A stretch of 51,240 bases of DNA from Vitreoscilla sp. (GTDB lineage Bacteria > Pseudomonadota > Gammaproteobacteria > Burkholderiales > Burkholderiaceae_C). The notes beneath the pieces are model-generated. The model was given only the letters and a program-made list of their open reading frames with translations, did no database searches and was not told where the DNA came from. Numbering within the stretch: the first letter of the stretch is position 1; every line of letters begins with the position of its first letter. The position numbers were made by a program, and so were the translations under genes. The stretch covers positions 1-51,240 of the forward strand of contig JADMKA010000063.1 of assembly GCA_018780145.1 (NCBI GenBank), read 5' to 3'. This document shows positions 8,288 through 27,874 of the stretch, in pieces.

Positions 8288-8346
8288 GACTGAAGGCTGG
8301 AATTCGAAGCACACGACGTGCGACGACTACGGTCTTGGAGACGACG

Positions 8347-8601
8347 ATGAGAACCGAAAGATTGCTGCGAGTCAGCTACTCGACCGGGGACGCCAGACAG
8401 GCGTTGAAGCAACTGGTCCCGTCCATGGCGTCGGGATTCAACGTCAACGCCGTCCACGGCATCTGTTCAGTGAACGGCGCAGATGCGAAGGCGCTCGCGG
8501 ACTTGCTCGCGGAGCGCATCGCGTTGCGCCTCGAAAGCGCGAAGGCGCGCAGGAAGCAGCGCGGCGCAGGCACGAATCCTGGCCAGCCGTCGAATCCGTG
8601 A
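8347..8601 (+). CDS. small conserved-looking protein between PRTRC F and B
   Basis: 84 residues from ATG 8347 with GGAG 6 nt upstream (8337-8340). The stop overlaps the ATG of gene B (TGATG), so it is translated with the operon. The sequence (start MRTERLLRVSYSTGDARQAL) contains two short helices with a hydrophobic centre and a basic, Pro-ending tail. I do not recognise a family. It may be a PRTRC accessory or a DNA-binding adaptor; neither is shown. Confidence 0.7.
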   Translation: MRTERLLRVSYSTGDARQALKQLVPSMASGFNVNAVHGICSVNGADAKALADLLAERIALRLESAKARRKQRGAGTNPGQPSNP

Positions 8602-12112: not shown

Positions 12113-13267
12113 CTAGAAGGTGGCGTCCATCTCCGCGTGGGCACGGTCGAGTTCTTCTCGAAGCCCCTGAACAGCCTCCAGCGTCTTGAGCATCGCGTCG
12201 TAGTCGCGCCGCAGTGCCTCGTTGTCGAGCTTGTCGTCAGGGTTGCGCAGTACCTTCAGCACTTCGGGTAGCCAGGCTGACTCCCGGAAGTCATTCAACT
12301 CGAAAGGGATGTCCTGGTGAGCCATGTGTCTTGCCGACATGGTCAGCAGTTGGGCTCTCATGAAGGGTGTGTGGTAGTAGGTGCTCGACGACTGGTCATC
12401 GAAGGCTCGAAAGGTACACGTTGTCGACAAGGCCAGCATGCGCAGCAGGTTGCGCTGGTCGTTGCCGAAGGCGCTGTACCAGCCGGAGGATTTCGTGTTG
12501 AACAGCAGCGTTCCCAGGAACTTCCCGGCAAAGATGTCGGCGTCCAACTCCATGGCGCGGCGCAGACTCTGCTGCCGCGTCTCCGATGGTGAGTGGGCAT
12601 TTGGGGTGCCGACTTCGTACAGCCTCGACACGCCGAACCGCGTTCTCAGGAGCCAGAGGTGTCCTCGCACGATGTGACCGATCTCGTGGGCGAAGACCGC
12701 CGTCAATGCAAGCGTCGTCAGGTCGATGGCGCACTGGCGACGTGACGGGTCGTTGGGAATCACGCCCAGCAAGGTGCCGGTACGGCCCTGTCGTTCCAAC
12801 TCGACCTTGCCGACCTCCGGCAGAGACCTTGGGTCGGCCAAGACCCGCAAGAGACGATCGGCCGTGTGGATGAACAGGCCCGCGTGCAACCCGATGTAGA
12901 AGTAGGGCGCTCGCACGTCGGTCACCTGTCCGGCGGAACCGTTCACCTCGAGGCTGCCCTGGGTCATGGCCATGATGCGCAGCGGGTGCCATTGCCGAAG
13001 CAGGGTGCTGCGGTGAAACGTCTCATCCAGTCGTGACCAGACTGTTCGCATGACGAGGTCTGCTGTCGCGCGGTCCACCTTGTCGACGATGGCAGGAGGC
13101 AGCGCGCCCTCGTTGCCAAGAATGACGTACCCATCGCTGCGCAGCAGTGCTCTTGATTCCATCTGCACATGCCGTGGCACGTTGCCCAGCCCGTACGGAT
13201 CCCGCTCGCCGAATCGCAGGCGATCCAGTAGCGCGAGCCCTCGTTCGAGAAAGCGGATCGTCGTCAT
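12113..13267 (-). CDS. gluzincin-like zinc metallopeptidase, HEIGH motif
   Basis: 384 residues from ATG 13267. The zinc motif HEIGH is at residues 194-198, inside a hydrophobic helix, and a third-ligand motif ELDAD is at 240-244 (E240, D244), the order seen in gluzincins. The N-terminal 190 residues and C-terminal 130 residues match no family I can name. There is no signal peptide and no clear membrane span, so the enzyme probably acts in the cytoplasm. It stands alone between the toxin-antitoxin remnant and the nuclease. Target unknown; a defence or stress role is guesswork from context. Confidence 0.75.
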   Translation of the reverse strand: MTTIRFLERGLALLDRLRFGERDPYGLGNVPRHVQMESRALLRSDGYVILGNEGALPPAIVDKVDRATADLVMRTVWSRLDETFHRSTLLRQWHPLRIMAMTQGSLEVNGSAGQVTDVRAPYFYIGLHAGLFIHTADRLLRVLADPRSLPEVGKVELERQGRTGTLLGVIPNDPSRRQCAIDLTTLALTAVFAHEIGHIVRGHLWLLRTRFGVSRLYEVGTPNAHSPSETRQQSLRRAMELDADIFAGKFLGTLLFNTKSSGWYSAFGNDQRNLLRMLALSTTCTFRAFDDQSSSTYYHTPFMRAQLLTMSARHMAHQDIPFELNDFRESAWLPEVLKVLRNPDDKLDNEALRRDYDAMLKTLEAVQGLREELDRAHAEMDATF

Positions 13268-13493
13268 GCCGATGGGCTACGCGGGCCCTTCGGGGCCGTC
13301 CGTACCCGGCGAATGCCTGCCACGACGATGCCGGAGACGCGGCCTCGTCACTGACAGCATGGCACCGGTTGAGGCCCCCCGATGAATCGCTGATGCTCCT
13401 TGCCAACGGCGGCGCGGGTGATCGCACGCGGTCAAGGAATGCCGCATGGGAAACGCCGCGCGCCGTCGCTCATCGGACTGTGCGGCGTTGGCG

Positions 13494-14423
13494 TCAGGCC
13501 AGCATGATGTCGCGCACGTCGCGCAACGCAGCGGCGAAATTCACACCAGCACCCGCCAGCACGTCGTGTGGCGTGAGGTCCGGGAATTTGAGGCCGGTCA
13601 TCGCTTCGATGGCCGCCAGAGGCCGCTGCTGGTGCTCGAAGTCGCCGAACACGAAGGCAGGCTTGAGGTCGGCGACGGCCTTGGCTTGCGAGGCCAGGTA
13701 GCCGGTGGCCGTGAGTGCCCCGGTCTCGTCGTGCACGAAGGCCACGATCTTCCAGAACCGCACCGGAACCTTCACGGCGTGCACGACCGGATCGGTGGCC
13801 GCAAACACCGGTCCGGTGAACACGCTGACGCGCATGCTGTCGGTCTTGGTGTTGCCCAGCACGTAGTCCTCGATGCCGCCCCACAGGCCGTCATTGAAGG
13901 ACTGCACCTGCGGGGCTGCGTTCGTCGCGTGGAAGGTGTCTGCGTCGGCCCGGGTGGCCACGAACTTCGCGCCCCAGTCGGGATCCTGCCGGCGGGTCAT
14001 GTGACCACGACTGAAGTAGCCGTCCTTCTGATTGCCGTAGACCTCTTTGAGCATCTGGTACTGCTGAGGGATGCGCGGGTCGAATTTCCAGATGTCGGTG
14101 CGGGGGATGGTTTTGGCGGCAGAGCCGTTGATATTGCATGCGCTGAATATCGGCATGCGGCGTGATCTGGAAACCGCCGTAGAAAAGTGCGTGTAGGTGA
14201 GGACGTGGGTCTTCTCGCCCTTCCAGTCGAAGCTGACGGCGTCGCGCTTGGCGGCCGCCCCCAGGCGGGGCAGGGCGACAGACAAACTGGCATCGATGAA
14301 CTGAGGGTCGTAGCCGGTGCGGTCCTCGTAGCTCTCGACGGGGTCCGGGGTCAGCCGCACCCGCTTGGCGGCCAGTTCGGGTGCCGGTGCGAACCGGTAG
14401 CGTGGCGTCGACCGTTTCGACAT
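13494..14423 (-). CDS. DNA/RNA non-specific endonuclease (NUC family)
   Basis: 309 residues from ATG 14423, with a GGGGGA ribosome site. It has the beta-beta-alpha-metal nuclease signature YFSRGHMT, with R139-G140-H141 (Ser in place of the first Asp of DRGH, a tolerated variant). The TNAAPQ ... FN ... W ... E segment follows near residue 165 and provides the metal Asn and structural residues. No signal peptide is seen, so unlike secreted NucA relatives it appears cytoplasmic and needs control. A terminator ends only 20 nt before the start codon, and the subtilase operon lies just upstream on the same strand. Confidence 0.85.
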   Translation of the reverse strand: MSKRSTPRYRFAPAPELAAKRVRLTPDPVESYEDRTGYDPQFIDASLSVALPRLGAAAKRDAVSFDWKGEKTHVLTYTHFSTAVSRSRRMPIFSACNINGSAAKTIPRTDIWKFDPRIPQQYQMLKEVYGNQKDGYFSRGHMTRRQDPDWGAKFVATRADADTFHATNAAPQVQSFNDGLWGGIEDYVLGNTKTDSMRVSVFTGPVFAATDPVVHAVKVPVRFWKIVAFVHDETGALTATGYLASQAKAVADLKPAFVFGDFEHQQRPLAAIEAMTGLKFPDLTPHDVLAGAGVNFAAALRDVRDIMLA

Positions 14424-14442
14424 GTCTTTCCCCCAGGACGTG

Positions 14443-14466
14443 AAAAAGCCCGGCGAGCCGGGCTTT
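14443..14466 (-). terminator. Rho-independent terminator between inhibitor-like gene and nuclease
   Basis: A 10-bp GC-rich stem (AAAGCCCGGC and its complement, 2-nt centre) is followed on the minus strand by TTTTT at 14447-14443. It lies between the 14480 stop and the 14423 nuclease start. The plus-strand T tract is weaker, so minus-strand termination is the better reading. Confidence 0.75.
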
Positions 14467-14479
14467 CGTTGGAACCGTG

Positions 14480-14719
14480 TCAGACGGGCTGCTTCAGCAC
14501 CTTGTGCGGCGGCTTGATGCCGGCACTCCCGACCGGTGAAAAAGTCCACAGCTTGAGCTTCTTCACGACCGATGCCACTTCGGCTTCTGAACCATCCACC
14601 AGGATGTTGCCGGGCATGCGGTCGATGACCTTGGCGCGCTTCAGCGAAGACACGAGCGATCGCTCCTCTCCTGCGGGAGGATCCGTCACGCCCTGGTAGA
14701 GGATCACGAAGCGGCTCAT
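14480..14719 (-). CDS. small protein resembling a subtilase propeptide/inhibitor (I9-like)
   Basis: 79 residues from ATG 14719, 12 nt after the subtilase stop at 14732 on the same strand. Its pattern (start MSRFVILYQGV, middle GNILVDGSEAEVASVVKKLK, then LWTFSPV) fits the beta-alpha-beta fold and length of stand-alone I9-type propeptides, which fold or block subtilisins in trans. The similarity is by pattern only. Position directly behind a subtilase supports it; cysteine and metal motifs are absent. Confidence 0.6.
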   Translation of the reverse strand: MSRFVILYQGVTDPPAGEERSLVSSLKRAKVIDRMPGNILVDGSEAEVASVVKKLKLWTFSPVGSAGIKPPHKVLKQPV

Positions 14720-14731
14720 AGCGCGATCATC

Positions 14732-16234
14732 CTACCGCAAAAGCCCCGCCCCCTCAAACGACGCCCCGAAGCCCAGGGTCTGGACGGCGGTGAGGGCCAG
14801 TTTCATGATGGCGTCGGACCGTTTCTGGTTCCTGTCCATGCCCAGCACCTTGGGCTTGCCGGCCAGCGCCCGGGCCAGGGCGCCGGTGGCCACCGGGCAG
14901 GCCATCGACGTGCCATCCATCACGGCGTAGCCTCCTGGGTAGGCCGAGACGATGCCCACACCGGGCCCGGACAGGTCGACGCCGCTGCCGATGTTGCTGA
15001 AGCCGGCCACGAAATTCTTCCGGTCGGTGCCGAACGGCTTGACTGCTTCGAGTTCCTGGGCGGCACCGGCCGGATAGGTCGCCTTGCGCCCGAAGGCGCT
15101 GATGCCCAGCGCCTGGCTGTAGCGGGCCGGGTAGTTAACCGGGCCGCGGTAGTCGTTGCCGGTGGCGGCCAGACAAACCACACCCAGCGCCCGGGCTCGC
15201 TGGATTTCGCGCAGGACGTCTGGTATGTCGACCTCGCCGCCCAGGGACAGGTTGATCAGGTCGCAGCCATCGTCAACCGCCTGCCGGATGCCCTTGGCGA
15301 TGTTGAACGACAGTGCGGTTTCCTGCCCTTTCGCGAACACCCGGTACACGTGGAGGTCGACACCCGGCGCCACGCCCCGAACACCGCTGCCTGATTTGGC
15401 TCGGCCGGCGACGATGCCGCACACGTGCGTGCCGTGGCCGATCAAGTCGCTCGCGTCCTTGGCGGCCTCGCCCTTGACGACGTTCAGCGACTTGGCCACA
15501 CGCAGGTCCTTGTGCTTGGCGACGCCGGTGTCCACCACCGCCACCTTGACGCCCGCACCGTCCGCATCAGCCCCCTCGAACCCGAAATGCCCCCGGGCCT
15601 CCTGTACCGCCAGATCGATAGGGACGCACGACAGCGTGAGGCTGCCGCTGGACGTCTGAACGGCCGATGTATACGCCGGCCAGTGGCCAGACGGTGCGAA
15701 GGCTTCGATGGACTCAAGGACCGTGACGCTGGAGGGAAACAGCAGCTTTGCGACGCCCTTGCTGTTCGTGGTGTTGCTGGCACCGACGCGGTTGGCGCGG
15801 TCGGTCATGCCGACAACCTCGACCCCGGCGAGGGCCTTGCCGGTCACTGCATCCACGACCTTGACCTCAAGCGAGGTCTTCGTCCCTGCCGACACGCCGA
15901 TCAGCGGGGACAGCTTGAAGCGCCTGAGCCACAAGGGCGACAGTTCTGCGACCGGGGCGATGCGCAGGCCGGGGTGGGCGCGCAGCAGGTTGAAGCGCTC
16001 GGCTTCGTCCATGGACACCAGCACGGTTTCGTGGGGCGCGACCTCGTCGATCAGGGTCACGTCCAGCGCCGCTTCATCCAGGCTCACCGGCGCTTTCGCT
16101 CGCAGGTGCGCGCCCAACTGCCGGCTGATCGAGCGCATGAATATCTGGCTGCCGCCTGGGGCGTTAGTGTTCCAGACGTTCAGGTTGGGAAGCACCACGA
16201 AGAGCGAGCCCCGCCGGCGATCAGATTCGGACAT
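14732..16234 (-). CDS. cytoplasmic subtilisin-like serine protease (S8)
   Basis: 500 residues from ATG 16234, with GGGGAG upstream; an in-frame ATG at 16294 is less likely. The catalytic triad is complete: D235 in VAVVDTGVA, H267 in GHGTHVCG and S443 in GTSMACP. About 90 residues of unassigned N-terminus come first. A carboxypeptidase-regulatory-like beta domain then spans about residues 115-200 (LEVKVVDAVTGKALAGVEVV). No signal peptide is present, so it probably works inside the cell. It forms an operon with the inhibitor-like gene, and a nuclease gene follows, suggesting a protease-controlled effector unit (inference). Confidence 0.88.
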   Translation of the reverse strand: MSESDRRRGSLFVVLPNLNVWNTNAPGGSQIFMRSISRQLGAHLRAKAPVSLDEAALDVTLIDEVAPHETVLVSMDEAERFNLLRAHPGLRIAPVAELSPLWLRRFKLSPLIGVSAGTKTSLEVKVVDAVTGKALAGVEVVGMTDRANRVGASNTTNSKGVAKLLFPSSVTVLESIEAFAPSGHWPAYTSAVQTSSGSLTLSCVPIDLAVQEARGHFGFEGADADGAGVKVAVVDTGVAKHKDLRVAKSLNVVKGEAAKDASDLIGHGTHVCGIVAGRAKSGSGVRGVAPGVDLHVYRVFAKGQETALSFNIAKGIRQAVDDGCDLINLSLGGEVDIPDVLREIQRARALGVVCLAATGNDYRGPVNYPARYSQALGISAFGRKATYPAGAAQELEAVKPFGTDRKNFVAGFSNIGSGVDLSGPGVGIVSAYPGGYAVMDGTSMACPVATGALARALAGKPKVLGMDRNQKRSDAIMKLALTAVQTLGFGASFEGAGLLR

Positions 16235-16366
16235 GTTGCGTCTCCCCTGGCGTGAATTGTTGTCGCCGAATGGTACTGCCGGGCGCGAGAACAACCGCCC
16301 AGGACCTCGCCGCGTGGCCGCACCGACGTCGCTTGAGGCTCCCCTGTCGCTGCGGTCACCGAGCGC

Positions 16367-16395
16367 TTGACATCATCGCCTGTCCTGACGATGAT
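16367..16395 (+). promoter_or_regulatory. sigma-70-like promoter for the Dam-like methylase
   Basis: TTGACA (16367-16372), a 17-nt spacer and GATGAT (16390-16395). The predicted transcription start falls on or next to the ATG at 16402, so the message may be leaderless. Confidence 0.45.
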
Positions 16396-16401
16396 CCGGG
16401 C

Positions 16402-17079
16402 ATGCGATATCCGGGCGGCAAGGGAAAGTGCTATCAGCGGTTGATCAGCCTGATGCCGCCACACACCACGTATATCGAATCCCACCTCGGTGGCGGAGCG
16501 GTCCTTCGCAACAAGCGTCCAGCGCAGATCAGCATTGGCATCGACGCAGACGCGCGGGTCATCGATCGGTGGCAGCGCGAGCACTCGGACCTTTGTCAAC
16601 TCGTGCACGGCGATGCCGCGTCATTCCTGGCGCGCTACTCCTTCTGCGGAGAGGAACTCGTCTACGCCGATCCACCGTACCTGGCGGAGGCGAGACGCCG
16701 GCCAAAGGTCTATCGGCACGACTACTCCAGGGCCGACCACGAGCGGCTGTTGGCGGTGCTCAGGTCACTGCCGTGCAGGGTGATGCTGTCGGGCTACGAC
16801 AGCGCGATGTATCGCGGCTTGCTATCGGACTGGCGTTGCGTGAGCTTCGCCGCCAAGACGCATGTGGATGTTCGGCAGGAGTGGGTCTGGCTCAACTTCG
16901 ATCCGCCGGCGACCCTGCACGATGCCTCGCATCTTGGCGCCACATTTCGCGAGCGCCAGACGATCAAGCGTCGCCACGCGCGGATGGTCGACAGATTCAG
17001 CCGGATGGACCCTGTGGAGCGCCACCAGGTTCTTTCAATGCTGAACGACCAGTACGGGAACAGGACGGGCGGACCATGA
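16402..17079 (+). CDS. Dam-like (D12 class) DNA adenine methyltransferase
   Basis: 225 residues from ATG 16402, chosen because the D12-class motif I MRYPGGKGK forms the very N-terminus, as in this family. The catalytic motif DPPY is at residues 90-93. There is no target-recognition insertion of the size seen in E. coli Dam, and the protein is shorter (225 against about 280). No good ribosome site precedes the start, and a promoter ends at 16395. The stop overlaps the ATG of the glycosylase gene (ATGA). It probably methylates adenine in a short site; sequence specificity cannot be read off. Confidence 0.85.
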   Translation: MRYPGGKGKCYQRLISLMPPHTTYIESHLGGGAVLRNKRPAQISIGIDADARVIDRWQREHSDLCQLVHGDAASFLARYSFCGEELVYADPPYLAEARRRPKVYRHDYSRADHERLLAVLRSLPCRVMLSGYDSAMYRGLLSDWRCVSFAAKTHVDVRQEWVWLNFDPPATLHDASHLGATFRERQTIKRRHARMVDRFSRMDPVERHQVLSMLNDQYGNRTGGP

Positions 17080-17918
17080 CGCAGTCTGGTGCCGTGTTTC
17101 TGGGACCCACGACCGTGCAGATCGAGCTGCCGGCTTGCGGCGACGAGGCGTTGCCGGGCGTCGCCTGGGGCTCGATCGATGCGTTCCCGACGCCGGCCTA
17201 CTGGGCCTACCAAGTGATCGCCCGCCGCGTGGGCGGCGCGCCGGTACGGCACCGACTCGGTCAGACGCTGGCGGAGGAGGTCGCGGCGTGTCTGCTCGGC
17301 GGCCACGGCATTCCGGCCAGCGTTGGCATGGCGGCGTTTCGGAGGCTGCAGTCGCTCGACATGCTCGCCTCGGCATCGAGCGAGGAGGAACTGTTGCATC
17401 AGTTGACCGTCCCGCTGATCGTGAACGGCCGACCGGTCAAGTACCGATTCGCCCGGCAAAAGGCGAAGTACCTCGACGCCGCCCTGAAGCGGCTGTCCGC
17501 AGAATCACCTCCGACGGAGTGCGGTCGGGTGCTGCGGGACTGGCTCGTCGAACTGCCTGGCATCGGGCTCAAGACGGCGTCCTGGGTGGCACGCAACTGG
17601 CTCGACGCCGACGACGTGGCGATTCTGGACATCCACATCCTGCGAGCCGGGGCGCTGGGGGGCTTCTTCGATCGCAGCTTGACAGTGGAGCGCGACTACA
17701 AGGAACTTGAAGCCCAGTTCATTCGGTTCAGCCGGGCCATCGGTGTCCGGCCTTCGGAACTCGACGCGGTGATCTGGTTCGAGATGATGTCGTCGCCGGC
17801 GACCGTCAATCAACTGCTGGGGGGCCGACGAGGCGGTGATGCTTCAGCTCGCGCATCATCGCGGCGTCGCTCCCACGAACGCGGCCCCAACCCCCATCAG
17901 GCCCGGCTGATCGAGTAA
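17076..17918 (+). CDS. HhH-GPD DNA glycosylase (8-oxoguanine-glycosylase-like)
   Basis: 280 residues from ATG 17076, overlapping the methylase stop as ATGA. The helix-hairpin-helix LPGIGLKTASWV contains the catalytic Lys K166, and the conserved Asp D185 sits in ILDIHILRA. K plus D marks a bifunctional glycosylase/lyase of the OGG type. It lacks the four-Cys iron-sulfur tail of EndoIII and MutY. Its last 20 or so codons lie antisense to the nitroreductase 3' end and look low-complexity. OGG-like and QueC-like genes occur together in type IV CBASS loci, which makes the neighbourhood suggestive. Confidence 0.85.
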   Translation: MTQSGAVFLGPTTVQIELPACGDEALPGVAWGSIDAFPTPAYWAYQVIARRVGGAPVRHRLGQTLAEEVAACLLGGHGIPASVGMAAFRRLQSLDMLASASSEEELLHQLTVPLIVNGRPVKYRFARQKAKYLDAALKRLSAESPPTECGRVLRDWLVELPGIGLKTASWVARNWLDADDVAILDIHILRAGALGGFFDRSLTVERDYKELEAQFIRFSRAIGVRPSELDAVIWFEMMSSPATVNQLLGGRRGGDASARASSRRRSHERGPNPHQARLIE

Positions 17919-18530
17919 CTGGCTGGTCCAGGGTTCACCGGTGACGCCGAGCGGGCAGAAGCTCAGGTCCAGCGCCTCCGCGGCCATCGACAGCCAGCCC
18001 AGCAGGATGCCGGCGTCGCGCCAGACCAAGCTCCAGGGATGGTCGTATTTCGCCGCTGTCATGCCACCTTCGGCAGCCAGCAGCAGCAGAGTCGCGCCAG
18101 GGGCCGCGAGCACCTCCTCCATGGCGCGTCTGACACGCTGAGCATCGACGCTCGTTAGCACGTTGACCAATGCATGACGGAAGGGGTCGTAGCGCTGCCA
18201 TGCGGACGTGCCAGGCCCCAGCAAGATCAGGTGGATCGGGTGGATGGCGCCAGCCGAAGGCGCAGGACGCCGTGTCAACGGAAATCCCAGCGTTGTGTCC
18301 CCGACTTGCTGCACGCGACAGGTGAGCGACAGCAGCGCGCTGAGTTGGCCAGCTTCCAGCGCCGAAAAGCTGCGACGCGTGCGCCGGCCCACGGCTGCCT
18401 CGCCGAACGACCGCGTGGCAGCCTCCGAAGGAGGAGGCAGCGGAACGAGCGCACCGGTGGGCCACACGAGCGGTGTGTAGGGCCGTGCCGCCGATAACGG
18501 ATGCGGGTTACCCAGGTCGATCCATGTCAT
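17856..18530 (-). CDS. SagB/nitroreductase-family flavin oxidoreductase
   Basis: 224 residues from ATG 18530, overlapping the queC-like stop by 23 nt. It has nitroreductase-fold features: an RRTRRSF segment near residue 50 (FMN phosphate contact), PSAGAIHPIHL near 90 (typical of SagB/ThcOx-type members) and a C-terminal WRDAGILLGWLSMAAEAL helix before LGVTGE. Such enzymes use FMN to oxidise azolines or reduce small substrates. As the last gene of the QueC operon it may change the redox state of a nucleobase adduct (inference). Its 3' end overlaps the convergent glycosylase gene by 63 bp. Confidence 0.82.
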   Translation of the reverse strand: MTWIDLGNPHPLSAARPYTPLVWPTGALVPLPPPSEAATRSFGEAAVGRRTRRSFSALEAGQLSALLSLTCRVQQVGDTTLGFPLTRRPAPSAGAIHPIHLILLGPGTSAWQRYDPFRHALVNVLTSVDAQRVRRAMEEVLAAPGATLLLLAAEGGMTAAKYDHPWSLVWRDAGILLGWLSMAAEALDLSFCPLGVTGEPWTSQLLDQPGLMGVGAAFVGATPR

Positions 18531-19113
18531 GGTCGAGTTCCCGGAGCACCTCGAAGTACTTGTTGCAGCCGCGGCAGTCCCCGCAGGCGACATCCGCCTT
18601 GTGGCAACTGTGCGCCCACGCGAGTGCGCCGGCAGGCACGCCCGACTCGCGGGCCAACTCGGCCGTTGTCATGTCGATGGCGGGCGCTTCAACCCGCAGG
18701 CCGCCTTCCTGCAACGCCAACACGTTGCTGATGGCTGCCACGAAGGTCGGAGTGCCGTCACGGTGGGTGCCGTCGGACTTGACCGTACCGATCCACAGAT
18801 GGTTCACGCCCAGGGCGATGGATTTCATCGCGGCCAATGTGATCAGCAGTTGGTTGCGATAGGGCCACCAGTCGGTAGCTGGGGCGTGCACGCTCGCCTC
18901 CGCACCGGCCATGTCGCCGGAGCCGAGGCTGCGGCAGTCGATGCGGAGGATGTGGTGCTCGATGCCTAACTGCTGGCAGATCGCCGACGACGCCGCGATC
19001 TCGGCCGCAGCCGGCAGTTGACCGTAGTCGATCGTGATGGCCACGTCGGGGCGTTTCCACCAGGCGAGACACAGCGAGTCCATGCCCCCCGACAACAGCA
19101 GGCCGGTCTTCAT
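18508..19113 (-). CDS. QueC-like 7-cyano-7-deazaguanine synthase family enzyme
   Basis: 201 residues from ATG 19113, overlapping the upstream stop (ATGA). It has an ATP-pyrophosphatase P-loop SGGMDS at residues 8-13 and a C-terminal zinc cluster with Cys at 170, 177, 180 and 183 (CGDCRGC). QueC makes preQ0 from carboxydeazaguanine. No queD, queE or queF is nearby, arguing against a queuosine operon. From memory, QueC-family enzymes of type IV CBASS and Qat defence systems have been reported to attach deazaguanine to protein N-termini. The neighbouring glycine-rich protein would be the natural substrate here (inference). Confidence 0.88.
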   Translation of the reverse strand: MKTGLLLSGGMDSLCLAWWKRPDVAITIDYGQLPAAAEIAASSAICQQLGIEHHILRIDCRSLGSGDMAGAEASVHAPATDWWPYRNQLLITLAAMKSIALGVNHLWIGTVKSDGTHRDGTPTFVAAISNVLALQEGGLRVEAPAIDMTTAELARESGVPAGALAWAHSCHKADVACGDCRGCNKYFEVLRELDHDMDRPG

Positions 19114-20342
19114 AGGGCGCAGGCAGTCCAGAGCGTCTCGTAGATGGCACTGACGTAGTCGTCGCGGAGAACGCAGCCCGATCCACGCATCATCTTCTTG
19201 TTCTCGTCCGATTCGTTTTCGGCGTACATCACGACCGGCTTTCCTTTGGCGCGTGCGTAGCCGATCTCGTAGACGGTGCCGGAGTCCATGCCATCACCAA
19301 TGGCGAACACCAGGTCGGCCGTGTCGATGCCCGCAAGGTCCAGCATGACGACGTCTTCGGCGGAACCATGACCGACATCGTGGTACGGCGAAAACACCCG
19401 CAAGCCCATGGCACTCAGATCGGCGCGGGCCTGCTCGACAAGCCAGAGTTGAGCCAGCGTGAAGAACGGTCCCGCCAGGTACACGGTCGGGCGCCGCCCG
19501 GCCTGATAGGCAGCCGATGCGTCAACCGGGGCGGGATGGAATCCTTCAAGACCTGAGGGCGTCGCGAACCCGCGTGTCTGGCAGTAGTAGGCGGTCGCGC
19601 GCGAGGCGAGGTCGGCGCTCTCCGCTGCGGATCGACCCTCGTGCATCCACCGATGCGCGAAGTGGGCGACGAAGTTGTCGCCCGACCCGAGCTTCCACAC
19701 ACTCGATGAACGGTAGGCCGGGATCGACTGCGCGTTGCGACCGTCATGGACCCATGCACCCATCGGGCCCTGCTTGATGATGACCACCTGCGCCGTGCCT
19801 TGCCGGATCAGCGCCTCGGCCATCTGAGCGGCTGGCGCGCCCGTGAGGCCGGTCAGCAGCGCCGCCTCATGGCGATTGAGCACCACCGCCAGCTGACGGG
19901 CGGTGGAGCCGTTGGCAGCAAAGGCCTGAGGCGCCACGGCATCCTGCGGATCGAACACGACCCGGTCGCCGTGCACGACGGCATCGCCCTCCATCATCCC
20001 GAACCGCACGATGTGTTCAGCGCGGACCATCAACGGAGGATGGCTGTCGCCAGTGCCACGGATCCGGGGCGTTTCCAGCCCATGGTGGTAGTCGAACGTG
20101 ATGGAGCGATCGATCGGCGTCGGCCGAACCTCGAATCCTTCCAGCGCGCCACGGGACTCCATCACCTCCCGCGCGAGGGGGTCGAGGTACGAATGCAGTT
20201 CGACCGGTGCCCCCATGCTCGCGATCGCAGACGCCGCGCGGCCTGCAGAGCCGTAGATTTCTCGCCATGCAGGCCGCATGCACCACTCTCGGTACACGCC
20301 GCCGACAACAGCGATCGGTGCGATGGGAACGGCGCCGGCCAC
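19110..20342 (-). CDS. PfkB-family kinase fused to nucleoside 2-deoxyribosyltransferase
   Basis: 410 residues from GTG 20342, starting 2 nt after the small-protein gene stops; ATG starts further upstream would run through that gene. Residues 1-275 are PfkB/ribokinase-like, with the anion-hole/catalytic motif KLGSGDNF (D222). Residues 284-410 are a nucleoside deoxyribosyltransferase domain opening PTVYLAGPFF, with nucleophile E359 in DSGTVYEIGYA. The first domain should phosphorylate a nucleoside or sugar and the second should break or exchange an N-glycosidic bond. Together they could produce or consume a modified nucleobase for the QueC-like enzyme; this is inference. Confidence 0.85.
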   Translation of the reverse strand: MAGAVPIAPIAVVGGVYREWCMRPAWREIYGSAGRAASAIASMGAPVELHSYLDPLAREVMESRGALEGFEVRPTPIDRSITFDYHHGLETPRIRGTGDSHPPLMVRAEHIVRFGMMEGDAVVHGDRVVFDPQDAVAPQAFAANGSTARQLAVVLNRHEAALLTGLTGAPAAQMAEALIRQGTAQVVIIKQGPMGAWVHDGRNAQSIPAYRSSSVWKLGSGDNFVAHFAHRWMHEGRSAAESADLASRATAYYCQTRGFATPSGLEGFHPAPVDASAAYQAGRRPTVYLAGPFFTLAQLWLVEQARADLSAMGLRVFSPYHDVGHGSAEDVVMLDLAGIDTADLVFAIGDGMDSGTVYEIGYARAKGKPVVMYAENESDENKKMMRGSGCVLRDDYVSAIYETLWTACAL

Positions 20343-20344
20343 GC

Positions 20345-20671
20345 TCAGGCAGCCTTGACGCGTACCCGCACCTGTCCGTCGTTCTTCGCGGTGACGTTCG
20401 CGATGTACTGGGTACCGCCGGCCATGCACTCGCGCAAACGTTGGACCAGCGGAGACGCGAGGCCGCCCGCGACCTGGCCCTTGTGCAGGACCACCACCAC
20501 AGTGGTGCCGCCCACCGTCTGGGTCGCCACCAACAACTCGTCGCCGACCTGAATGCCAGCGACGACGGCCTGCTTGGGGGAACTGAGCTGGGTGTCGAAC
20601 ACCAGCGCCGCGCAGCTGTCGGGCGGCGAATCAAAGCCGCCACCGCCGCCACCACCACCCGAACCTGACAT
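20345..20671 (-). CDS. small protein with glycine-rich N-terminus (possible conjugation substrate)
   Basis: 108 residues from ATG 20671, with a strong AGGAGG 8 nt upstream. It starts MSGSG followed by seven further Gly and then Phe. A Cys-containing link (PPDSC) leads into a beta-rich domain of about 85 residues (GIQVGDELLVATQTVGGTTV ... GQVAGGLASPLVQRLRECM). It is the first gene of the operon with the kinase/transferase fusion, QueC and nitroreductase. A flexible glycine-rich N-terminus beside QueC recalls the QatB-QatC arrangement as I remember it. Function is not established. Confidence 0.8.
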   Translation of the reverse strand: MSGSGGGGGGGGFDSPPDSCAALVFDTQLSSPKQAVVAGIQVGDELLVATQTVGGTTVVVVLHKGQVAGGLASPLVQRLRECMAGGTQYIANVTAKNDGQVRVRVKAA

Positions 20672-20961
20672 ATGGTTGTCCTCCTGCCGGTCCAAGAATA
20701 ACTGATCACTCGGCCGTGGCGCGTCGAGAAACCGGCGTTGACTGGGTAGGCCAAGAGGCGGCACCGCTTCAAGGCTAAGCGCTGCAGCCTCGGGCGCGAT
20801 TCCGGCGTTGCGTCGATTCATCAGCGGGTCAAGCCGGCCCCGAGTTGCCGTCGTCCGCTTTGGGCCTCGGTGCAGGCTCAGTCGGGCGCGGATCGGCCTG
20901 AAGCCGCACGGGCTTCGGGCTGCCTCCTACGTAGTTGAAATGTGTAGCTGCACATATCTGC
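20672..20961. other. upstream region of the glycine-rich gene and left flank of the outer RIT element
   Basis: No gene is seen. It should contain the minus-strand promoter of the QueC operon; TTATTC near 20695-20702 is a possible -10, with no clear -35. A 6-bp GAAGCC/GGCTTC hairpin lies at about 20899-20915. An ATGTG/CACAT inverted repeat (about 20939-20955) lies just before the RIT end. Confidence 0.4.
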
Positions 20962-21096: not shown

Positions 21097-22107
21097 CTAC
21101 AGCGAGCGCAGCCAGTCCAGCAGCGACTTGCTCTGCTGCCACGACGGCAGCGAGGCCGATGGTGACTCTCCGGCCACCTTCTCCAGCGCGCGCCGCTTCA
21201 TCTCCAGGTTCGCCCGGGCGTAGATCTGCGTTGTCTTCACGTCCACGTGCCCGAGGAAGTCGCGGATGATCTCCAGCGACACACCGCTCTGCAGAAGATG
21301 CATGCCCTTGGTGTGCCGCATGCTGTGGGGGCTGATCTTCTGCGTGAAGCCAGGCACCGCCGACCTGGCTGCCTGCACGTGGCACTGCAGCAGGTACCGC
21401 AGGCCCGACCTCGACAGGCGCCCACCCTGGCGGTTCTGGAACAGCGGCAGGTGGCCTCGCTCAGGCCGGTCGAGATCGTTCTCACGCAGGTGGTCACGCA
21501 GCAGCCGAGCCGTGGCGTCCATCAGGGGCACCACACGAACCTTGCGTCCCTTGCCCAGGAGCCTGACCTGGGCTGGCGTTGTCAGGCGCACATCGTGGGC
21601 GTTCAGATCGATCAACTCCTGCGCCCGGGCGCCGGTGTCGTACAGCACGCTGAGCATCACCGCGTCGCGCCGCCCAGCCGGCGTGGTGGGATCGGGATGC
21701 GCCAGCACCTGCGTCAGCTCGTCCTTGGACATGTAGGCCACCGGCACCTGGACATGGCGCCGCAGCGGCATTGCCATGATCCTCTGGCACTGCAACATCC
21801 GCTCGGGCACTTCGGACTGCACGTAGCGGAAGAACGCGTGCAGCACGGCCAGCCGCTGGTTCAGGGTGCGGATCGAACACTTCCGCTCATGCGCCAGGTG
21901 ATCGAGGAAGGCCTCGACGAAAGCCACGTCGATGTCGGCCAGGGACAGGCGCTCGACGGCGATGCCGCGACCGTCACGGCCGAAGCGCAGCATCAGCGTG
22001 AACACATCGCGGTAGGCCTTGATCGTGTTCGGGCTCAGGTTGCGCTGGCCGGCCAGGTAGCGCGTGAGGAAGTTCGTCACGTGCACGGAGAGGTCGGTCG
22101 GCTTCAT
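21097..22107 (-). CDS. outer RIT recombinase C (tyrosine recombinase)
   Basis: 336 residues from ATG 22107, overlapping the stop of the outer recombinase B remnant (ATGA). The N-terminal SAM-like core-binding domain (LSPNTIKAYRDVF) is followed by a catalytic domain with R in YDTGARAQELIDL, HxxR in SPHSMRHTKGMHLL and nucleophile Tyr in TTQIYARANL. It appears intact. Its middle partner gene is broken, so the outer element is probably immobile unless supplied in trans. Confidence 0.88.
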   Translation of the reverse strand: MKPTDLSVHVTNFLTRYLAGQRNLSPNTIKAYRDVFTLMLRFGRDGRGIAVERLSLADIDVAFVEAFLDHLAHERKCSIRTLNQRLAVLHAFFRYVQSEVPERMLQCQRIMAMPLRRHVQVPVAYMSKDELTQVLAHPDPTTPAGRRDAVMLSVLYDTGARAQELIDLNAHDVRLTTPAQVRLLGKGRKVRVVPLMDATARLLRDHLRENDLDRPERGHLPLFQNRQGGRLSRSGLRYLLQCHVQAARSAVPGFTQKISPHSMRHTKGMHLLQSGVSLEIIRDFLGHVDVKTTQIYARANLEMKRRALEKVAGESPSASLPSWQQSKSLLDWLRSL

Positions 22108-22323
22108 GACGACCTCCAGGGCCTGCGCGGAATGACGTCGCTGAAGGCGGCGTCCGATCGCGAGACGATCTCCGGGTACAGCTCGGCGGTCATCTGCAGG
22201 TAGTCCTGCGTGCCGTCGATCGAGGCGTGGCCGAGATAGGTGGCCAGCACGGGCATCCTGGCCTGCAGATCGGCGCCCTCGCGGTACCAGCGCAGCAGCG
22301 TGTGCACCGCAAAGGTGTGGCGC
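22104..22323 (-). pseudogene. outer RIT recombinase B, 3' part
   Basis: Encodes the C-terminal 72 residues of a tyrosine recombinase, from RHTFAVHTLLRWYREG to RRPWRSS, with the Tyr region YLGHASIDGTQDYLQM. Its 5' part is at 25765-26540. Joining the two gives 996 nt, a 331-residue protein in one frame, with HDLRHT rebuilt at the junction. Confidence 0.88.
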
Positions 22324-22349
22324 TAATTCCGGCTCCGGAATTAGCGCCA
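22318..22349. repeat. 32-bp palindrome at the left junction of the inner RIT
   Basis: 15-nt arms TGGCGCTAATTCCGG and its exact complement flank CT. The left 6 bases (TGGCGC) are target sequence also found at the right junction (25759-25764). The right arm ends directly at the TAACTCC terminus of the inner element. Confidence 0.85.
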
Positions 22350-22376
22350 TAACTCCGGGTCCCGGATTATTCCGGG
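22344..22376 (+). repeat. inner RIT left inverted repeat
   Basis: 33 bp starting GCGCCATAACTCCGGG. Identical to the reverse complement of 25732-25764. The first six bases coincide with target sequence, so the element-specific repeat may be 27 bp. Confidence 0.92.
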
Positions 22377-22505
22377 TACGGGACGCTGGTCTTCGGCAAG
22401 CGGCGTCTTTGTTCGGCTGTCGCCGAAGGCGCCTCTTGATCTGCCGGAATTATTCGGCTGTCGTCTCCGGCCGGGACTCTTCCCGGATCTTCAAGGAGGC
22501 GAACG

Positions 22506-23738
22506 ATGGCGACCACCCGGCACGCAGCTGCAATTGACGAACTCTCCGGCCCAGGGCCGCTGGAGTGCTGCATCAAGGGCTTTGCGGCGCAACTCTCGAA
22601 TCAGGGATATGCGCCGAACACGATCCACGCCAAGTGTGATCTGCTGGCCGACCTCAGCCGCTGGCTCGAGCGGCGCAAGCTCTTTCTGACGGCTCTGGAC
22701 GAGCGTCGGCTGAGGCAGTTCCAGGCCAGCCGTCGTCGGCGAGGCAAGATGCGTCGCGGCGATCCCGCCACGGCCCAGCAGCTACTGCAATATCTGCGGG
22801 AGCATGGCCACATCGCGCCGGCCGCACAGGCAGTCGATGTGCACCCAGCGGCGTTGGTCTTGTGTGACTTCGAGTCGTTTCTTCGTTCCGAGCGCGGACT
22901 GTCAACGGCCACGGTGGTTTCATACCTGGCGGTCGGTCGTCGCTTTCTCCATGAGCGGTTCGGACGCAAGGCGCTGCGTCTGAGGCAGCTGCGAGCGGAG
23001 GACCTTCACCGCTTCGTTGTTCGCGAGATCCAACGTGTCACTCGCACGCACGGCAAGATCGTCATCACGGCGCTGCGGTCGTTCCTACGCTTCTTGCTGC
23101 TGCGCGGCGCCATTCAGACTGACCTCGCCCGAACGCTTCCCGGCGTGGCGACCTGGAGACTGTCGCATCTCCCACGGTCGTTGCCTCCCGAGCAAGTGGA
23201 GCACCTGCTCGCGTGCTGCGACCGCGGTTCACCGAGCGGCAAGCGCGACTACGCGATCTTGCTGCTGTTGGCCCGGCTTGGCTTGCGCGGTGGAGAGGTC
23301 GTGCACATGGCCTTGGAGGACCTGGACTGGGAGCGCGGCGAGCTTGTCGTGCGGGGCAAGGGCCAACGGCTGGAGCGACTGCCTTTGCCCGCGGACGTCG
23401 GTGCGGCGCTGGCGCGCTATCTCTGCGAAGTTCGTCCGCCTTGTGCCACGCGTCGGGTATTTGTCCGCATGGATGCGCCGTGCCAGGGCTTGGCACAGTC
23501 GGGTGTCTGTTGCGTCGTCCGCCGCGCGTTGGCGCGCGCCGGATTGGATCCCGAGTGCAAGGGGGCGCACCTGTTGCGCCACTCCCTTGCCACCAACCTG
23601 CTGCGCCGCGGTGCGTCCCTGAGCGAGATCGGTCAGCTGCTGCGCCACCGGCAGCCGACGACCACGCAGATCTATGCCAAGGTGGACATCGAGGCGCTAC
23701 GCGTCATCGCGCTGCCGTGGCCAGGGAGTGCGTCATGA
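22506..23738 (+). CDS. inner RIT recombinase A (tyrosine recombinase)
   Basis: 410 residues from ATG 22506 with AAGGAGG 6 nt upstream. It has an extended N-terminal DNA-binding region, then the catalytic domain with R in RLGLRGGEVVHMAL, HxxR in HLLRHSLATNLL and Tyr in TTTQIYAKVD. It is the longest of the three, as usual for the first RIT gene, and its stop overlaps recombinase B (ATGA). A 130-nt leader with several CCGGAAT-type repeats separates it from the terminal repeat. Confidence 0.92.
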   Translation: MATTRHAAAIDELSGPGPLECCIKGFAAQLSNQGYAPNTIHAKCDLLADLSRWLERRKLFLTALDERRLRQFQASRRRRGKMRRGDPATAQQLLQYLREHGHIAPAAQAVDVHPAALVLCDFESFLRSERGLSTATVVSYLAVGRRFLHERFGRKALRLRQLRAEDLHRFVVREIQRVTRTHGKIVITALRSFLRFLLLRGAIQTDLARTLPGVATWRLSHLPRSLPPEQVEHLLACCDRGSPSGKRDYAILLLLARLGLRGGEVVHMALEDLDWERGELVVRGKGQRLERLPLPADVGAALARYLCEVRPPCATRRVFVRMDAPCQGLAQSGVCCVVRRALARAGLDPECKGAHLLRHSLATNLLRRGASLSEIGQLLRHRQPTTTQIYAKVDIEALRVIALPWPGSAS

Positions 23739-24667
23739 GTCCGCTGCAAGTCGCACTCGACGAATACCTCGCAGTCCGTCGCGCCCTGGGATACAAGCTC
23801 CGTCTGTCCGGCCGCCTGCTGCAACGCTTCGTCGATTTCGCCGCTGGCCAGGGGGCGACGTACATCACGTCCGAACTCGCCGCGGCATGGGCAACGTTGC
23901 CTGGCTCAGCGCAGCCCGCTCAGTGGGCCAACCGGCTGGGGATGGTGCGCCGCTTTGCACTGTATTGCAGTGCGCAGGAGCCGCGCACGGTCGTGCCGCC
24001 GCCGGACTTGCTTCCTCATCGATACCGCCGTCCTGAACCCTACCTGTACAGCGACGAGCAGATCAAGCGCTTGCTCGATGCCGCTCAACGCCTTCCATCG
24101 GCCACCGGTTTGCGGCCCCATACGTTCGCCACGCTCTTCGGTCTGTACGTGGCCACGGGGCTGCGAGCCAACGAGCCGTTGCGCCTCAACCGCGACGATG
24201 TCGACCTCACCAACGGCCTGCTGACGATCCGCGGGACGAAGTTCGGCAAGTCCCGCTACGTGCCGGTGCATCCCTCCGTCCTGCGTGCACTGCACCGCTA
24301 CGCCGACCACCGGGACCGCTGCTGCCCCGACCCGGCAACGTCGAGCTTCTTCGTCTCGGACCGAGGGACTCGCTTGACCGAGTGGTGTGTGCGGTGGACG
24401 TTCGTCAAGCTGTCGAGAGAGATCGGCTTACGGGGGGCGGACGATTCGCGGGGACCTCGCCTGCACGATCTACGTCATCGCCTGGCGACCGCTACGCTGC
24501 TGAGGTGGTATCGGCACGGCGTCGACGTCGAGCGCCACCTGCCCGTGCTGTCGGCCTACCTCGGCCACGCCCATGTCACCGACACGTACTGGTACTTGAC
24601 CGCGACGCCCGAGCTCCTGCACTACGTCATGCAACGGGTGCAGCGCTCCAGGGAGCAACGGCCATGA
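23735..24667 (+). CDS. inner RIT recombinase B (tyrosine recombinase)
   Basis: 310 residues from ATG 23735, overlapping recombinase A's stop. Catalytic residues are seen in VATGLRANEPLRL (R), LHDLRHRLATATLL (HxxR) and the C-terminal Tyr segment TDTYWYLTATPELL. It belongs to the same subfamily as the outer recombinase B that the element has interrupted: both carry GPRLHDLRH followed a few residues later by LLRWYR. The element therefore inserted into a homologue of its own middle gene. Confidence 0.92.
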   Translation: MSPLQVALDEYLAVRRALGYKLRLSGRLLQRFVDFAAGQGATYITSELAAAWATLPGSAQPAQWANRLGMVRRFALYCSAQEPRTVVPPPDLLPHRYRRPEPYLYSDEQIKRLLDAAQRLPSATGLRPHTFATLFGLYVATGLRANEPLRLNRDDVDLTNGLLTIRGTKFGKSRYVPVHPSVLRALHRYADHRDRCCPDPATSSFFVSDRGTRLTEWCVRWTFVKLSREIGLRGADDSRGPRLHDLRHRLATATLLRWYRHGVDVERHLPVLSAYLGHAHVTDTYWYLTATPELLHYVMQRVQRSREQRP

Positions 24668-25662
24668 GCATCGCCGCCACATTGCCCGCGCTGGTGCAGT
24701 CGTTCTTCATGGATCGGCTCATGCAGCAGCGCCAAGCCAGCCCTCACACCATCGCGAGCTATCGCGACACCTTTCGGCTGCTCTTGCAATACGCCCAGCA
24801 GCGGTTGGGCAAGTCCCCGACGAGCCTGACGGTGCCCGACCTCGACACCCCGCTACTTGGCGCATTCCTCGAGCATCTGGAGCGCGACCGCAAGAACAGC
24901 GCCCGCAGTCGCAACGTGCGCCTGGCGGCGATCCATTCCTTCTTTGGCTACGTGGCGCTGCATGCGCCGGAGCACAGTGCCGTCGCGCAGCGCGTGCTGG
25001 CCATGCCCAGCAAGCGCTATTCGCGGTGTCCGATTGCCTTTCTGAGCGCCGTCGAAGTCGACGCGTTGCTCGCTGCGCCGGACCTCGCGACATGGTCAGG
25101 GCGGCGTGACCGGGCGCTCCTCATGCTGGCGGTGCAGACCGGGCTGCGCGCTGCGGAGCTCACCGGGCTTCATTGCGAGGACATCGTTCTTGGTGCCGGC
25201 GCGCATGTCCGCTGCGAGGGCAAGGGCCGCAAGCGGCGCTGCACGCCGCTGCGCAAAGACACGGTCCGAGTGCTGCGCGACTGGCTGCGCGAGCGAGGAG
25301 GTCAGCCTTCGGATCCGCTGTTCCCGACCACGCGAGGCACCGCCCTGAGCCACGACGCGCTGCAGGACCTGCTCAACAAGCATCTTGCCGTAGCGCGTCG
25401 GCGATGCCCATCGCTGGCACGCAAGCGAGTCACACCGCACGTGCTGAGGCACACGCTTGCGATGGACCTGCTTCATCACGGCGCCGGCCAGACAGTGATC
25501 GCTCTTTGGCTCGGACACGAGTCGCCCGAGACGACGGCCATCTACCTGCACGCGGACATGCAGCTAAAGGAACGTGCCCTCGCAGCCACGACTGCCAAGA
25601 AGACGTCGGTACCTCGCTTCCGGCCCAGGGACCGCCTACTGGACTTCCTCAAGGGCCTCTGA
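24664..25662 (+). CDS. inner RIT recombinase C (tyrosine recombinase)
   Basis: 332 residues from ATG 24664, overlapping recombinase B's stop. The N-terminal core-binding domain (ASPHTIASYRDTFRLLLQY) precedes a catalytic domain with R in VQTGLRAAELTGL, HxxR in TPHVLRHTLAMDLL and Tyr in TTAIYLHADM. It ends RLLDFLKGL, close to the end SLLDWLRSL of outer recombinase C, so the two are clear homologues. Only 69 nt separate its stop from the right terminal repeat. Confidence 0.92.
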   Translation: MSIAATLPALVQSFFMDRLMQQRQASPHTIASYRDTFRLLLQYAQQRLGKSPTSLTVPDLDTPLLGAFLEHLERDRKNSARSRNVRLAAIHSFFGYVALHAPEHSAVAQRVLAMPSKRYSRCPIAFLSAVEVDALLAAPDLATWSGRRDRALLMLAVQTGLRAAELTGLHCEDIVLGAGAHVRCEGKGRKRRCTPLRKDTVRVLRDWLRERGGQPSDPLFPTTRGTALSHDALQDLLNKHLAVARRRCPSLARKRVTPHVLRHTLAMDLLHHGAGQTVIALWLGHESPETTAIYLHADMQLKERALAATTAKKTSVPRFRPRDRLLDFLKGL

Positions 25663-25731
25663 TAATGCCGGGGATCGCTCGGCGTTCCGCCAATGACGAC
25701 ACTCGATGGTGCGGCGCTTCTCGACGCCGCG

Positions 25732-25764
25732 CCCGGAATAATCCGGGACCCGGAGTTATGGCGC
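25732..25764 (-). repeat. inner RIT right inverted repeat
   Basis: 33-bp exact reverse complement of 22344-22376. Its last six bases, TGGCGC (25759-25764), repeat the left target flank at 22318-22323. Confidence 0.92.
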
Positions 25765-26540
25765 AGGTCGTGAAGGCGAGGCCCTTCTCCTCGGCCACCG
25801 TGGCCGATATGACATCGGTGCAGCAGGTCCCGGTAGTTGCGGTACACGCCGCTGCCGTGAAGCTGGCCGCCGCGCGGTGACGGGAAGAAGTAGTCATCGT
25901 CGGAGCGAGGCCCCAGCGCGGCCGCGTACTTCTGCAGACGAACCACCAGTGGCCGGGCCGGCGGCACCAGACGGTCCTTGCGGAACTTGGTGTCGTTGAT
26001 GTGCAGCACGCCTTGGATTAGGTCAACGTCACGTATGCGCAGGCTCAGGGCCTCTTCGAGACGAAGGCCACATCCGTACAGCACGCGCAGCAGCTCTGGC
26101 AAGACGATGTGGCGCAGGTGTGTAGACGCCATCGGCTCGATCCGGTCAACGGTGTCGAGCAAACGGCGGACTTCCTCGTGCGTCAACACGCGTGCCAGGA
26201 ACGACTTCGATTCCTTGGCGCCGCTGCCCTGATCTGGCACGTCGGCGGGAAGGCCGAGTCGGCGCATGAACAGAGCGAATTGGCGAACCAGGTTGATACG
26301 AGCGCGCTGGGTCTTGCCGGTCTCGTGCGGCTGCTTGGTCAACCACGATGAAGTCATGGACCTCGGCAACTCGACTTGCTGCAAGCCTTGGCGGCACAGA
26401 TGGGCGTCGAGTCGGCGGAGGCTCCATGCGCCAACGTTGTAGCGATAGCCACAGGCTCGCTTCTCCTGAACGAACTGCGCCATCAGTGGGGCCAACGGGC
26501 TGCTGCCGGTGAATGTCGCGGGCTTACGAGGCGCGGCCAT
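25765..26540 (-). pseudogene. outer RIT recombinase B, 5' part
   Basis: Starts at ATG 26540, overlapping the stop of outer recombinase A (26524) by 17 nt. It encodes 258 residues plus two bases, ending at GPRLHDL, where the inner element enters the codons of the HxxR catalytic motif. The upstream Arg box (YGCGLRLEEALSLRI) is intact. The frame runs on into the inner element for about 75 missense codons on the minus strand, so a truncated hybrid could still be made. Confidence 0.88.
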
Positions 26541-27795: not shown

Positions 27796-27874
27796 GATCG
27801 TCTCCTCGTTGACGGCAGCCACAGCGGCCACCGGGGAGGACGATCTTGGAAGCGTTATGCGCAGTCGGGATGGC

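Follow-up and report, generated by a model that had tools for sequence, protein, structure and literature searches.

What is the function of an operon that combines a small glycine-rich protein with a nucleoside kinase/deoxyribosyltransferase fusion, a QueC-like enzyme and a nitroreductase? The question is raised by four minus-strand genes of a Vitreoscilla sp. contig (JADMKA010000063.1, assembly GCA_018780145.1), of which positions 1 to 51,240 were analysed (hereafter the window; Table 1). The system is best interpreted as a variant of QueC-dependent immunity built on a HIRAN-type protein, akin to type IV CBASS (cyclic-oligonucleotide-based anti-phage signalling system) and Qat and a member of neither. 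As a whole, the locus would be explained best, with a probability of roughly 0.6, as a mobile anti-phage system working by protein deazaguanylation.

The cysteine motif of the QueC-like protein reads CHKADVACGDCRGCNK and carries the signature CH(x)5CxxCxGCxK of Cluster 4 of the family PF06508; the zinc (cysteine) cluster CH(x)5CxxCxGC, called intact in the first-pass annotation, is complete. The SGGMDS motif is likewise present, HRDG and WWPYRN stand in place of the canonical YPDC and VPxRN, and the spacing YGQ(x)5E is one residue short of the YGQ(x)6E printed for Cluster 4 in the available text of the paper that defined it (Libby et al., 2026; PMC13329287). With the canonical QueC model TIGR00364, the protein reached 75 bits, below the cut-off of 150.3. 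These motifs, this score and the genomic context ruled out a canonical queuosine operon, as the first-pass annotation had held. According to the same available text, a neighbour combining a PfkB-type kinase with a nucleoside 2-deoxyribosyltransferase (PfkB-NDT) occurs in about 89% of the Cluster 4 neighbourhoods and was read as probable purine salvage; the window protein, sharing both the Cys motif and the PF00294-PF05014 neighbour, belongs to this cluster. The pairing of QueC with PfkB-NDT has thus already been published, and the new parts here are the small partner and the wider kit; that text, as far as available, mentions for the cluster neither the small partner, the OGG-like glycosylase, the nitroreductase and adjacent queD/E nor a defence context.

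Under permissive patterns, the 57 related loci described below retain SGGx[D/E]S in 56 cases and YG-x-x5-E, [W/F]W[P/A][Y/F]RNQ and [H/F]xDG in all 57, and the Asp for recognition of the guanine edge is likewise conserved. With a ten-member profile, only three PDB sequences were matched at E ≤0.01, namely E. coli QueC, Cap9 and B. subtilis QueC, and a GSGxLxG segment together with the YxQ(x)5E spacing was found to be common to Cluster 4 QueC and Cap9. In a QueC tree of 50 rows, the 31 rows drawn from the 57 Cluster 4 loci formed a single group with support of 100/99; one canonical row (L007) was missed by the selection pattern, and L074 was entered as 'canonical' though a divergent member. The tree holds a single Cap9 row, on a long branch, because 398 genomes of the phylum, searched for Cap9 at E 1e-22 without a positive control, gave none. 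L074 itself (7657-10627) is a divergent Bacillaceae version encoding a small MGSGG protein, OGG, PfkB-NDT and a QueC with GSGSLVG and YKDT, and groups with Cap9 in the tree, on long branches.

The QueC-like protein was used as a tblastn query against plasmid records and genome and viral collections. Thirty plasmid records were matched, 24 of this type (45-73% identity) and six canonical (≤30%), with a clear gap between them. The genome scan yielded 39 loci, comprising 29 at 39-74% (L042-L070), nine with canonical or other QueC (L071-L073, L075-L080) and the divergent L074, and six viral-collection contigs contained a match. Among 369 genomes of the class, close matches besides the window's own genome were limited to G367 (61%) and G015 (58%), the next, among those listed, reaching at most 38%. 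Of 5426 E. coli genomes, 22 matched, 18 with at least 80% of the query covered, in two lineages. The gene set is frequently plasmid-borne, and the hosts named in the records belong to Pseudomonadota, Cyanobacteriota, Bacteroidota, Campylobacterota, Planctomycetota, Verrucomicrobiota, Actinomycetota and Halobacteria.

When the 57 loci were searched with profiles derived from the window proteins, the small protein was found in 54, PfkB-NDT in 55, OGG in 41, the nitroreductase in 34 and, within 6 kb of QueC, the methylase in 12; at the three loci lacking the small protein (L059, L063 and L083) the sequence begins too near the gene. In the 43 non-redundant loci (QueC less than ~92% alike, at least 4 kb upstream and at least 3 kb downstream), the small protein and PfkB-NDT accompanied QueC in 43/43, OGG occurred in 33 (same strand upstream in 18, convergent downstream in 15), the nitroreductase in 27 and the methylase in 10. 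A weak PfkB-profile match (37.6 bits) appeared in one control window (L105). The pairwise distances of the five proteins correlate with r of 0.63-0.86 over 26-38 shared loci, and in each of the 10 comparisons none of 999 permutations was as high. Since the same set recurs in other species and the distances correlate, the gene set is not a product of chance. The co-occurrence on which the first-pass annotation had staked its proposal was therefore found for the small protein, PfkB-NDT and QueC; the proposed four-gene core is constant in these three genes, the nitroreductase being an optional accessory. OGG belongs to the set, and the methylase is an accessory of a subset of loci.

As for the window itself, the positions of the four open reading frames (ORFs), the 2-nt gap between the small-protein gene and the GTG-initiated PfkB-NDT gene, the ATGA overlap of the latter with the QueC-like gene, the 23-nt overlap of the nitroreductase gene with the QueC-like gene and the strong ribosome site ahead of the operon were all as first described. 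Pfam matches supported the assigned PfkB, NDT, QueC and nitroreductase families, and the match of the nitroreductase to the SagB-type dehydrogenase model TIGR03605 (7.1e-12, 45.2 bits) lies below the cut-off of 78.4. The set proved larger than the four genes first named: an OGG gene, convergent to the operon and overlapping the 3' end of the nitroreductase gene, and a D12 methylase gene joined to OGG by an ATGA overlap had been overlooked.

Table 1. Features of the operon and its convergent neighbours in the window
Feature	Position	Strand	Remarks
AGGAGG ribosome-binding site of operon	20680..20685	-	8-nt spacer before small-protein ATG
Small partner protein	20345..20671	-	108 aa; no family match; MSGSGGGGGGGG tail, ~residues 1-19
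Small partner protein, HIRAN-fold domain, residues 24-107	20345..20671	-	predicted fold
PfkB-type kinase + nucleoside 2-deoxyribosyltransferase (NDT) fusion	19110..20342	-	PF00294 2.9e-12; PF05014 6.2e-18
QueC-like ATP-pyrophosphatase, Cluster 4 type	18508..19113	-	201 aa; PF06508 9.2e-24
SagB-like FMN nitroreductase	17856..18530	-	PF00881 2.8e-7, over its cut-off
OGG-like HhH glycosylase	17076..17918	+	start MTQSGAV; PF22175 1e-13 (scanned from 17094)
D12-class adenine methyltransferase	16402..17079	+	PF02086 1.2e-7

The window's small partner starts with MSGS and bears a disordered, Gly-Ser-rich tail. An M-[SGCAT]-G start was found within 60 codons of the ORF's first start in 50 of 54 small ORFs as against 43 of 587 background ORFs, and at the first start itself in 38/54 versus 4/587; these counts, from which the truncated L004 and L005 were excluded, are free of circularity, whereas a separate listing, in which the motif guided the choice of start, is in part circular. 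The four exceptions are L039 (MSSG), L054 and L064 (motif start further down) and the + copy of L094, and the start with the best ribosome site differs from the motif start in L004, L005, L033, L040, L041, L048, L062, L065, L066 and the + copy of L094. Annotated starts in plasmid records read M-[S/G/C]-G in 11 of 12 and MSSG in one, and the E. coli protein of L125 is annotated from MMSGSGG. The usual start is Met-Ser-Gly rather than Met-Gly, with MGGSGGG in the planctomycete and MGSGGFS in Bacillaceae partners, MGGS in L057 and L064, and MGSG in L074. A Pfam scan of 44 small proteins gave only scattered weak matches (PUA_4 in 4/44, best E 0.01); the HIRAN-like assignment of the non-tail domain comes from its fold, which was confidently predicted. 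The HIRAN domain of HLTF binds DNA 3' ends. From HIRAN of HLTF/Rad5 and of Hachiman HamB, this predicted domain differs in sequence (11-15% identity) and in being a stand-alone protein with a Gly tail and no helicase. The small protein is proposed to be both the conjugation substrate and the sensor.

With regard to the base that may be conjugated, queD and queE lie directly 3' of the QueC-like gene in the actinobacteria L069 (Microbacteriaceae) and L070 (Phytohabitans); in L070 the genes run QueC-nitroreductase-queD-queE and overlap slightly. QueD scored over its cut-off in both, and QueE was matched best by QueE models, below their cut-offs; each of these genomes has one QueC match, the Cluster 4 enzyme. 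A queuosine-precursor-transporter-like gene follows in L037 (TIGR00697, below cut-off), and the same gene is found in L089. This adjacency, the sole QueC in those genomes and the transporter-like gene point to 7-carboxy-7-deazaguanine as the putative substrate. The absence of queD/E noted in the first pass thus holds for the ten neighbouring proteins of the window (12113-20671), not for these two relatives. Over 32 host genomes, QueD was detected in 22 (TIGR03367, E 1e-8; 13 over cut-off) and QueE in 26 (TIGR03365, E 1e-5; one over cut-off); PF01242 on 11 genomes added two QueD-like proteins, one weak, and TIGR04349 on 12 added no QueE.

The same ten proteins include no CD-NTase (Pfam, PADLOC, NCBIfam), no TGT-like Cap10 (Pfam) and neither a QatA NTPase nor a QatD TatD nuclease (Pfam, PADLOC), in line with the first-pass annotation, and membership of type IV CBASS or Qat was ruled out by the absence of these defining genes. 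The likeness to type IV CBASS, as described in the available text of PMC11996544, lies in the short QueC-like Cap9 (9NTO), with GSGxLxG and Y/FxQ(x)5E, and in a partner with a Gly-rich N-terminus (MGGS); the present system differs in its PfkB-NDT, its HIRAN-like partner, which starts MSG (MSGS, not MGGS, in the window), and HxDG instead of YxDC. L097 encodes a CBASS cyclase and, beside it, a Cap9-like QueC; the cyclase starts MGGSGGGFF, like the planctomycete and Bacillaceae partners, and the gene between the two has no Pfam match. With qatABCD (PMC13279940) the system shares a QueC-family enzyme and, in QatB, a partner with a disordered tail and a small/Gly N-terminus (MGTS). However, QatC has extensions and, at ~400 aa, roughly double the length of the 201-aa window enzyme; its Tyr/Asp base-recognition pair is changed to Thr/Thr, whereas the Asp is kept here.

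A further relative emerged from plasmid matches of PfkB-NDT (75 records): among the 60 listed, 24 were this system and 13 were further long matches from Rhizobiaceae, four of which (L098-L101, on Rhizobium/Agrobacterium plasmids) were examined. In L098 (2661-8484), a PfkB with a degenerate NDT-like domain is followed by TIR-TGT, OGG, QueC and a TIR protein starting MGGG, and L099-L101 have the same gene order and the same MGGG start. The TGT domain was identified by Pfam in L098 (1.6e-9), with the corresponding gene at the same place and of the same length in the others; against the window-based profiles, the L098 proteins scored 288 bits for PfkB-NDT and 64 bits for OGG. A SLATT gene (Pfam, L098) or a gene annotated DUF4231 lies near these operons. 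They thus resemble the present system in the PfkB-NDT homologue, OGG, QueC and Gly-start partner, and differ in that the partner is a TIR protein (ThsB-type by Pfam in L098), TGT is present, NDT is degenerate and QueC falls outside Cluster 4 in the tree. They likely represent a second QueC-conjugation immune system. Operons without TGT thus keep NDT intact, whereas those with TGT have lost it; on the basis of few lineages, this suggests that the two may have the same task in handling the base. The open-licence PMC literature searched yielded no account of the small partner or of the TIR cousin operon.

The surroundings of the system were compared with PADLOC models at E 1e-15. Beside 22 loci, 148 of 267 ORFs were scanned and 124 models matched, as against 33 models for 135 of 320 scanned ORFs in 20 control windows elsewhere in 17 host genomes; as the models are redundant (several per protein) and concern single genes, the difference, which bears on the enrichment in defence islands that the first-pass annotation proposed to test, is a trend rather than a statistic. 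Among the 25 of 124 models listed are CBASS cyclases, dGTPase, MkoA/MkoC, AriA, JetA/C/D, ThsB, DRT2 and HEC-05, the neighbours matching protein models of Mokosh, Wadjet, CBASS and PARIS besides dGTPases, and among the 25 of 33 listed for the controls are type II/III restriction-modification, ThsB, mad3, PDC and WYL. A dGTPase-family gene lies within 4 kb of 9/57 loci and a restriction-endonuclease-like gene beside 5/57, versus 0/20 control windows in either case. One E. coli copy lies beside prophage genes near dsdC and another at the tRNA-Sec island, each followed by a dGTPase gene. In the window, parts of a PRTRC-type element (3332-10857 and 30265-31317; ParB, E, F, B, A and ThiF, with D further on) flank the operon, which thus appears to lie within a plasmid-like integrated element; an integrase-domain gene occurs at 33208-34575, and no tRNA was found in the window. 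The stretch immediately upstream of the operon (21097-27831) contains a number of ORFs, on either strand, that appear tyrosine-recombinase-like by eye.

GSGD of PfkB and DSGTxxE of NDT are intact in the window, GxGD is retained in 54/57 copies and GTxxE in 55/57, and D222, G355, T356 and E359 are invariant over 25 sequences. The L063 copy is partial, and both motifs are missing from two copies, which belong to the second small protein + PfkB-NDT pairs of L086 (10603-12143) and L094 (3241-4844). The window OGG has GIGxKTAS and D-x-H intact, D-x-H being kept in 41/41 copies and the Lys motif recognised by a pattern search in 32 and on visual inspection in the remaining nine. On a phage-like contig (L123, 1-923), which is not a CBASS locus, an OGG gene adjoins a truncated QueC-like gene.

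These features would fit the following mechanism. Removal of Met would expose an N-terminal Ser-Gly, or Gly-Gly in some phyla, on a small protein that would bind DNA ends or single-stranded DNA through its predicted HIRAN-type domain and carries a flexible Gly-Ser tail. The QueC-like enzyme, with ATP, would couple 7-carboxy-7-deazaguanine through its carboxylate to this N-terminus, in the way that Cap9 acts on the CD-NTase of type IV CBASS. Such N-terminal deazaguanylation is probable, and a defence role of the system is more probable still. More tentatively, NDT might attach or exchange a (deoxy)ribose on the protein-linked base, filling the role of the TGT-like Cap10 in CBASS, and PfkB might then phosphorylate it to give a protein-linked nucleotide or a protein-DNA attachment; we regard this sugar/phosphate step as conceivable, at somewhat less than even odds. 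The OGG-like glycosylase could read or remove the modified base, the nitroreductase, dGTPase and endonuclease genes could be varying accessory or effector parts, and the system would be activated when the HIRAN domain senses the ends of phage DNA. A broader and likewise speculative scheme, again short of an even chance, is a modular immune chemistry in which a QueC ligase, base exchange by TGT or NDT-PfkB, and OGG act on different Gly-tailed partners: CBASS would use a CD-NTase, the present system a HIRAN sensor of DNA ends and the Rhizobiaceae a TIR effector. NDT-PfkB would convert the base on the protein into a nucleotide, and OGG would read that nucleotide once it is joined to invading DNA or incorporated into it.

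Several observations weigh against this explanation. Residue 2 of the partner is mostly Ser, not the Gly that is modified in CBASS and required in QatB, and the base-stacking Tyr of QueC/Cap9 is His in the QueC-like enzyme (Phe in L050). The join of Cluster 4, Cap9 and L074 has a support of 87/78, which is not strong; with Cluster 4 + Cap9 not rejected by the approximately unbiased (AU) test (p 0.29), a common origin is neither proven nor rejected. Neither QueD nor QueE was detected in 4/32 host genomes, and no QueE in two more (G769 and G772). The four include the window's own genome (G000, 96.5% complete), where TIGR03367 and PF01242 found no QueD and TIGR03365 and TIGR04349 no QueE; it has a canonical queC (contig C50). 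The explanation may be a gap that hides its queD/queE pathway, divergence of that pathway or the use of a different substrate. The control windows hold defence genes too, the model counts of both sets are redundant and concern single genes, and the scanned ORFs were 148 of 267 and 135 of 320. No OGG was present at L097, the one CBASS locus read, and the literature searched gave no report of one in type IV CBASS. The sugar and kinase steps draw on domain complementarity in few lineages, and conjugation and phage defence are deduced from comparison. The conjugation system lacking CD-NTase and Qat genes that was first proposed is, on comparative grounds, well supported by the M-S/G-G start, the QueC motifs with the GSGxLxG shared with Cap9, the queD/queE genes of two genomes, the defence neighbours and the TIR cousin.

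Of the alternatives, free nucleobase metabolism would have PfkB-NDT and the QueC-like enzyme salvage or make a purine or 7-deazapurine nucleotide, with the small protein as carrier or regulator. NDT and PfkB families use free nucleosides, the transporter-like gene of L037/L089 would suit such a pathway, and purine salvage is the probable role given to Cluster 4 in the available text of PMC13329287. Yet the distribution is patchy and plasmid- and island-borne, defence genes are neighbours, the cousin operon has TIR genes, and a constant partner with a conserved M-S/G-G start and a predicted HIRAN fold is left unexplained, which makes this explanation improbable. DNA modification or restriction, in which QueC and NDT-PfkB would make a 7-deazaguanine deoxynucleotide or modified DNA and OGG, methylase and endonuclease would read or cut the mark, accommodates OGG at 33/43 and the methylase at 10/43 loci, the endonuclease-like and dGTPase-family genes (5/57 and 9/57) and the production of deoxynucleosides by NDT. 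It is unlikely as well, given that no TGT-like base-inserting enzyme occurs among the ten window proteins, that methylase and endonuclease are minority parts and that the conserved N-terminal tail is not accounted for. Maturation like that of a ribosomally synthesised and post-translationally modified peptide (RiPP), with the Gly-rich protein as a precursor whose backbone is oxidised by the SagB-like enzyme, would suit that dehydrogenase and the leader-like Gly/Ser-rich tail but is very improbable, the nitroreductase being absent from 16/43 loci and the C-terminal part being a confidently predicted HIRAN-like domain rather than a core peptide.

Should anti-phage protein deazaguanylation be correct, this modification, proven for type IV CBASS and probable for Qat, would be extended to a widespread module in which a HIRAN-like partner and a sugar/phosphate-handling enzyme are the new elements, and the 'purine salvage' annotation would have to be revised. 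Since 18/5426 E. coli genomes hold versions with at least 80% of the query covered, the system is testable in E. coli K-12, including the fate of the conjugated base after QueC, and the TIR-type cousin hints at further systems of this kind.

Further cassettes were observed in the vicinity of the system. On two plasmids, Multiubiquitin/ThiF/DUF6527 genes lie beside it (L088, 5261-8069; L093, 11488-13785). In the window, positions 12113-16294 encode a subtilase (PADLOC subtilase model, 6.9e-35), a DNA/RNA non-specific endonuclease, an M48-like protein and a 79-aa ORF that gives an inhibitor-like impression, and this group may possibly be a further defence cassette.

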